A stretch of 64,000 nt of DNA from Staphylococcus lutrae (GTDB lineage Bacteria; Bacillota; Bacilli; Staphylococcales; Staphylococcaceae), in contig NZ_CP020773.1 of assembly GCF_002101335.1 (NCBI RefSeq), positions 2,469,116-2,533,115 on the forward strand, in the 5' to 3' direction. A program made the position numbers and the translations under genes. The notes below the pieces were generated by a model. It had not been told where the DNA came from, searched no databases, and saw only the letters and a program-made list of their open reading frames with translations. Positions 50,991 through 52,984 of the stretch are shown piece by piece. The number at the start of each line of letters is the position of its first letter. Position 1 is the first letter of the stretch.

Positions 50991-51794
50991 TGATTTCACC
51001 GGCTTTCTGTACAAATGTATCAATTTCTTCTTTTGTTCTAAGTTCTGTCACTGCAATCAACATATGATTTTTATATTGCGGATCAACGACGCTCAAGTCA
51101 AAACCACCAATGATTCCCGCTTCAAGTAATTGTTGATTAACTTCTGAAATAGGATGGTTAAAATGAACGACGAATTCATTAAATGAAACGCCTTCAAGCA
51201 CACTAAAACCTTGTTGTTGAAACTGTGTTTTAGCATAGTTTGCATTTTCCATATTTTGAATTGCAATTTCTTGAAGGCCTTGTTTTCCTAGAGCTGACAT
51301 TGCAATTGATGATGCAAGCGCATTTAACGCTTGGTTAGAACAAATATTTGAAGTTGCCGTTTCACGACGAATATGTTGTTCGCGTGCTTGTAGCGTAAGA
51401 ACAAATCCGCGATTTCCTTCGTTGTCAGTTGTTTGACCAACGAGGCGACCAGGGATTTTACGCATTAATTTTTTAGTTGTTGCAAAGTAGCCACAATGAG
51501 GGCCTCCAAATTGTGTTGGGATACCGAATACTTGTGTATCTCCGACAACGATATCTGCACCGAATTCACCTGGTGGTGTGAGTAGACCTAAAGACAATGG
51601 GTTTGCATAGACGATAAACAACGCTTTTTTATTTGCGATTAATTGTTGAATCGCTTCTAAATCTTCAATCGAGCCATAGAAGTTTGGATATTGTACCGCA
51701 ACAGCAGCAGTATTATCATCAATGGCATCTTCTAGTTTTTTGAGATCTGTGATTGTGCCTTCTAAATCGACTAAATGCATTGTCGTAACGATCC
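50980..51794 (-). pseudogene. gcvPA: Glycine dehydrogenase subunit 1, N-terminal part missing
   Basis: Only about the last 265 of ~450 residues are present, from [19 protein letters not shown] to [12 protein letters not shown]. The sequence matches GcvPA throughout ([39 protein letters not shown]). Upstream of codon ~MHLVDLEG the DNA is the 3' end of tyrS. The missing N-terminal part and gcvT should precede it. Without them the glycine cleavage system cannot work. Confidence 0.85.
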
Positions 51795-52984
51795 TCCGCA
51801 ACAAGTGTATAATCTAAATCTTGTTGACGTTCACCATTAATATAAATCGCGCCATTAGTAATATCTTCTCTCGCTTGTCGTTTAGATGGAGATATTTTTG
51901 CTTCTACCAATAGCTCTACCAAGTTTGTCATATCACTCGATACAGTCACTTGTGGTACATCTTTAAAGCTTGCGCTAATCTCATCTGCAGATAATGATTT
52001 TAAATCACCTTTAAATAATGCTTCTGAAATTCGTTGTGCATCATTTAAAGCCGCTTCGCCGTGAATTAAACGCGTCACATTTTCAGCTAACGTTCGTTGT
52101 GCTTGACGTAAGTGAGGCGCTTCTTCAACGGATTGTGCCAATGCCTCAATTTCGTCTTTGCTTAAAAATGTAAAGTATTTCAAGAATTTAATGACATCAT
52201 CGTCACTTGTATTAATCCAAAATTGATAAAATTCATATGGTGTCGTCTTTTCTGGATCAAGCCATACTGTGCCTGTTTCTGACTTACCAAACTTTTTACC
52301 ATCTGCTTTCGTAACAAGTGGAATCGTAAATCCGTAAACATCCGTCACGCCATACATACGTCGCATTAACTCAATACCACTCGTAATATTTCCCCATTGA
52401 TCCGATCCGCCAATTTGAATTTTACAGTCATGGACACGGTTTAAATGACCAAAATCGATCGCTTGAAGAATCGTGTACGTAAATTCCGTATATGAAATAC
52501 CTGTTGCTAAACGTGACTGTATTGAATCTTTCCCTAACATATAGTTCACACCTACGTGCTTACCGTAATCACGTAAAAATTCAATCAATGAAATTTGACT
52601 TAACCAATCATAGTTATTGACTAAAATCGGTCCATTTTCTACATCAAAATCAAACAGTTGCGTCATTTGTTTTTGAATCCCTTGCACGTTCTTTTGAATT
52701 TGCGATTCCGTTTGCAATACGCGTTCTTCCGATTTACCTGATGGATCCCCAATCATCCCTGTGCCGCCACCGATTAAAACAATTGGACGGTGACCCGCAT
52801 TTTGGAAACGACGTAATGTTAAATACGGTAACAAGTGACCAATGTGTAAACTATCCGCTGTAGGATCTGCACCACAGTAAATTTTCACTTCCTCTTTATT
52901 GAGGAGTGCTTCTATTCCTTCTTCATCTGTTTGTTGATAAATTAGGCCTCTCCAACTCAACTCTTCTAATAATGCATTTGTCAT
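51719..52984 (-). CDS. tyrS: Tyrosyl-tRNA synthetase, C-terminus replaced at a junction
   Basis: Class I synthetase with HIGH (LHIGHLLP) and KFGKS motifs, anticodon-binding region and S4-like domain ([20 protein letters not shown]). Native sequence is recognisable to about ...[11 protein letters not shown] (codons to ~51779); the last ~19 codons ([19 protein letters not shown]) are gcvPA DNA read out of frame. About 18 native residues are lost. Start ATG 52984 behind AGAGGAGG, downstream of a T-box. Confidence 0.88.

Follow-up and report, generated by a model that had tools for sequence, protein, structure and literature searches.

A gcvPA-tyrS joint at the end of a Staphylococcus lutrae genome contig is almost certainly an assembly artefact

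The window analysed here, a stretch of 64,000 nucleotides (C1:2469116-2533115, where C1 denotes the contig), forms the last 64 kb of the one-contig genome of Staphylococcus lutrae, 2,533,115 bases in length, and its suspect stretch reaches the last base. Window bases 1-51772 are ordinary chromosome and end within an ORF that we take to be gcvPA, as named in the original prediction (Table 1). At position 51772 gcvPA breaks off midway and the 3' end of tyrS begins. This geometry is not the 'tail to tail' contact that had been proposed; both genes lie on the minus strand, and the end of tyrS abuts the interior of gcvPA. Among the matches listed, gcvPA matches in relatives end at window 51772 or earlier, and the match to the native tyrS locus starts at 51772, with one shared T. 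The joint had been expected at 51775..51800; its presence is borne out, and its position is 51772/51773, just left of that interval.

Table 1. Features at and beyond the joint (window positions)
Feature	Position	Strand	Details
3' part of gcvPA	50980..51772	-	end of genuine chromosome sequence in the contig; 5' part at contig bases 1-566
Chimeric point	51772..51773		no strand; T at 51772 compatible with either side
Second copy of C1:193317-205561	51773..64000		no strand; 12,228 bases, to the contig's last base
Tail copy of tyrS	51773..52984	-	codons 1-404 of 420, continuing out of frame in gcvPA sequence
Pieces of an ORF, whole (573 aa) in the 193-kb copy	54455..56172	-	ORF comparison
Pieces of an ORF, whole (570 aa) in the 193-kb copy	56512..58087	-	ORF comparison
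Two pieces of an ORF, whole (385 aa) in the 193-kb copy	58975..60131	+	ORF comparison
130-aa remnant of an ORF, whole (363 aa) in the 193-kb copy	62385..62777	-	ORF comparison

The ORF that crosses the joint (51719-52984) comprises tyrS codons 1-404 followed by 17 codons read through gcvPA sequence, with 16 tyrS codons lost. A truncation of TyrS by about 18 C-terminal residues had been predicted, and the loss itself stands with the smaller count for this copy. An in-frame gcvPA/tyrS gene fusion, with tyrS running directly into gcvPA codons, was excluded, as the tyrS frame traverses the gcvPA sequence out of frame, and no meaningful fusion protein is therefore encoded.

Beyond the joint, the tail of the contig duplicates a region of the contig interior, 193 kb away, and with the shared T the match extends from 51772 to the contig end (C1:193316-205561). 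Global alignment of the tail with the 193-kb copy revealed no substitutions and 19 single-base indels, with the base missing from the tail in 18 of the 19; by raw count, every one of the 19 sits in a homopolymer run, 2 to 6 bases long in the 193-kb copy. Homopolymer indels are a typical consensus error of long-read sequencing, and two copies that differ solely in this way look like the product of consensus error rather than of divergence after gene duplication. In this alignment the tail is free of indels for its first 3 kb, and quality therefore does not fall off right at the joint, contrary to the original prediction, which placed the joint at the start of an indel-rich half; the first tail indel is about 3 kb past it.

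The same indel pattern is reflected in the coding content of the two copies. The 193-kb copy contains eight complete ORFs of 110 aa or more (323, 573, 570, 239, 385, 331, 363 and 211 aa); three of these are unchanged in the tail (323, 331 and 211 aa), and the other five are disrupted there or fall below the 110-aa listing threshold. The 573-aa and 570-aa ORFs are presumably formate-tetrahydrofolate ligase and acetyl-CoA synthetase, respectively, and we take the 385-aa ORF to be acuC-like and the 363-aa ORF to be DAHP synthase/chorismate mutase-like. Coverage by ORFs of at least 200 aa was 0.415 in the tail versus 0.54 to 0.87 in 14 equal-sized segments of the unique part, a difference that, taken alone, is weak evidence of an artefact. 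Two further features were also recognized in this region. A T-box leader upstream of tyrS (window 53032-53205, minus strand) matched the model over its full length with 66.9 bits (E 2e-14), which is below the Rfam gathering score of 93, so that scanning 44-64 kb with Rfam defaults gives no entry; the tail and 193-kb copies of this leader have no indel between them. Near the tail end, an inverted repeat of 42 bases with an 88% self-match in reverse complement is found at window 63891-63932 and at C1:205452-205493, and is perhaps a terminator.

The gene parts that are absent at the joint were located elsewhere in the genome. Intact tyrS lies at C1:193269-194528. The N-terminal 188 codons of gcvPA occupy contig bases 1-566, and the 363 codons of gcvT come next, running to base 1661. 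This GcvPA segment had a single match in the genome (C1:3-566), as did the gcvT family (C1:585-1649); gcvT, rpoD, alaS and dnaA were assigned by family search. The claim that gcvT and about 180 N-terminal GcvPA residues are missing is thus correct for the joint and incorrect for the genome, where both are present within contig bases 1-1661.

Closure of the circle was evaluated by joining each of ten window positions (51768-51777) to contig base 1. The frame across the join was open at three of the ten (51769, 51772 and 51775), with 51769 and 51775 giving a GcvPA one residue shorter or longer than that obtained with 51772; among the matches listed, 51772 is also where gcvPA matches in relatives end. 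Joined to contig base 1, it yields an uninterrupted GcvPA of 452 residues with no base gained or lost, and alignment of this protein with that of one genus relative gave 405 of 452 identical residues and no gaps. gcvPA is therefore whole across the contig end and start. No start/end overlap was detected, as the window had no match to C1:1-20000. The contig is not rotated to dnaA, which lies 1.31 Mb from its start (C1:1307683-1308999). The DnaA profile also weakly matched repeated ORFs elsewhere in the genome (e.g., L098-L104) of 253 aa (three rows) and 264 aa (six rows), which presumably are helper ATPases of IS21-type insertion sequences.

Gene order was compared with that of 46 relatives that carry both genes on one contig, among the matches listed from the 83 genus relatives searched. 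In 42 of the 46, gcvPA and tyrS share a strand, with tyrS 174-235 kb downstream (median 191 kb), and once the circle is closed the corresponding distance here is about 193 kb, also on the same strand. The natural gcvPA-tyrS order is thus present in this genome, and the joint is extra to it. In the four other relatives (G073, G070, G044 and G002) gcvPA and tyrS lie on opposite strands at a distance of 201-204 kb, perhaps reflecting an inversion with one end between the genes. At the tyrS locus itself, no gcvPA match was found near tyrS in any of 80 loci (flank up to 10 kb; 24 of the loci from Staphylococcus). The gene beside the tyrS end at 193 kb, which we take to be HtrA-like, lies within about 2.5 kb of tyrS in 23 of the 24 Staphylococcus loci; at the remaining locus (L017), just 144 bases of contig follow tyrS. 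The best named TyrS match in the contig scan, from which very near records may have been omitted, was from Staphylococcus pseudintermedius (87%). Absence of the joint from the relatives, among the matches listed, would be compatible with a strain-specific event.

Such an event could have taken the form of a deletion. The order and orientation of both sides fit a simple deletion of C1:1-193315, and the joint is exactly as this would predict, so that genuine reads could have come from a real form of the chromosome carried by a minority of cells, or by a second chromosome copy, beside the complete one. However, the sole above-cut-off matches to rpoD, alaS and gcvT lie in the stretch that would have been deleted (for rpoD and for alaS alike, a single additional weak match scored under the cut-off), and rpoD and alaS are essential; a deletion chromosome would thus be possible only beside a complete one. 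It would also have the end of tyrS cut off, and the 19 indels without substitution would still require an explanation by sequencing error. Taken together, we assign this minority form only a very slight probability.

A second form of real event, the insertion into gcvPA of a duplicated tyrS region of 12.2 kb, would be in keeping with the presence of both copies in a one-contig assembly that is 99.99% complete. Yet it would require the contig to have been cut by chance at the edge of the insert, such that an arbitrary contig start coincides exactly with that edge, and gcvPA to have been split with no base lost or duplicated. The two copies are moreover separated by homopolymer indels only, and among the matches listed no relative of the 83 searched spans the joint. 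We regard such an insertion as even less probable than the deletion. Conceivable in principle, a real deletion and a real insertion are both very unlikely.

The 12.2-kb second copy, the genes found elsewhere and the gapless closure of GcvPA instead support a contig joint, the reading that the original prediction had favored, and the joint is almost certainly a feature of the sequence and not of the cell, an artefact of assembly at the contig end with no biological counterpart. By far the most probable origin is a chimeric read that extended the contig end, where overlap trimming went no further than the chimeric point, so that the tail persisted. The linear contig would represent the circular staphylococcal chromosome, with the window as its untrimmed end. 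One or a few reads in which gcvPA ran on into tyrS-region sequence from 193 kb away would have lengthened this end by 12.2 kb, and the simplest source of a chimeric read would be the ligation of two fragments during library preparation. That ligation step is hypothetical; a search of the window for a PacBio adapter sequence, allowing up to three mismatches, gave no hit. During circularization, the overlap between start and end may then have been removed from the contig start by local alignment, which would have halted where the end turns chimeric, leaving the base immediately past the chimeric point as base 1 and the tail uncut. Trimming up to this point would account both for contig base 1 being the base that follows 51772 and for the lack of a window match to C1:1-20000. 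Derived from few reads, at what we infer to be low depth on a long-read technology, the tail would have been poorly polished, giving rise to its homopolymer indels.

Chimeric reads arise by the ligation of unrelated fragments and are usually outvoted by other reads. The joint resembles them in linking two distant loci of one genome through one shared base. Unlike the usual case, the chimera would have survived here because the read hangs off the contig end. Overlapping or low-quality contig ends are documented in passages of the Circlator paper (PMC4699355) and of an assembler benchmark (PMC6966772). As in the faulty ends of circular-replicon contigs that these passages describe, the tail is extra sequence of lower quality that would have arisen at circularization. 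The usual faulty end described there repeats the other end of the contig, whereas here the repeated sequence is an interior region 193 kb away, as would follow if the extending read were chimeric.

If the tail is an artefact, the assembly exceeds the true length by 12,228 bases and the chromosome would measure 2,520,887 bases (2,533,115 - 12,228). The assembly would also show a spurious second tyrS, five ORFs that are broken in the tail and whole elsewhere, and a gcvPA split between the contig ends. Counts of duplications, pseudogenes or fusions taken from it would mislead, a consequence that matters only for the careful use of public data. The joint itself would be ordinary and would imply nothing unusual about the bacterium.
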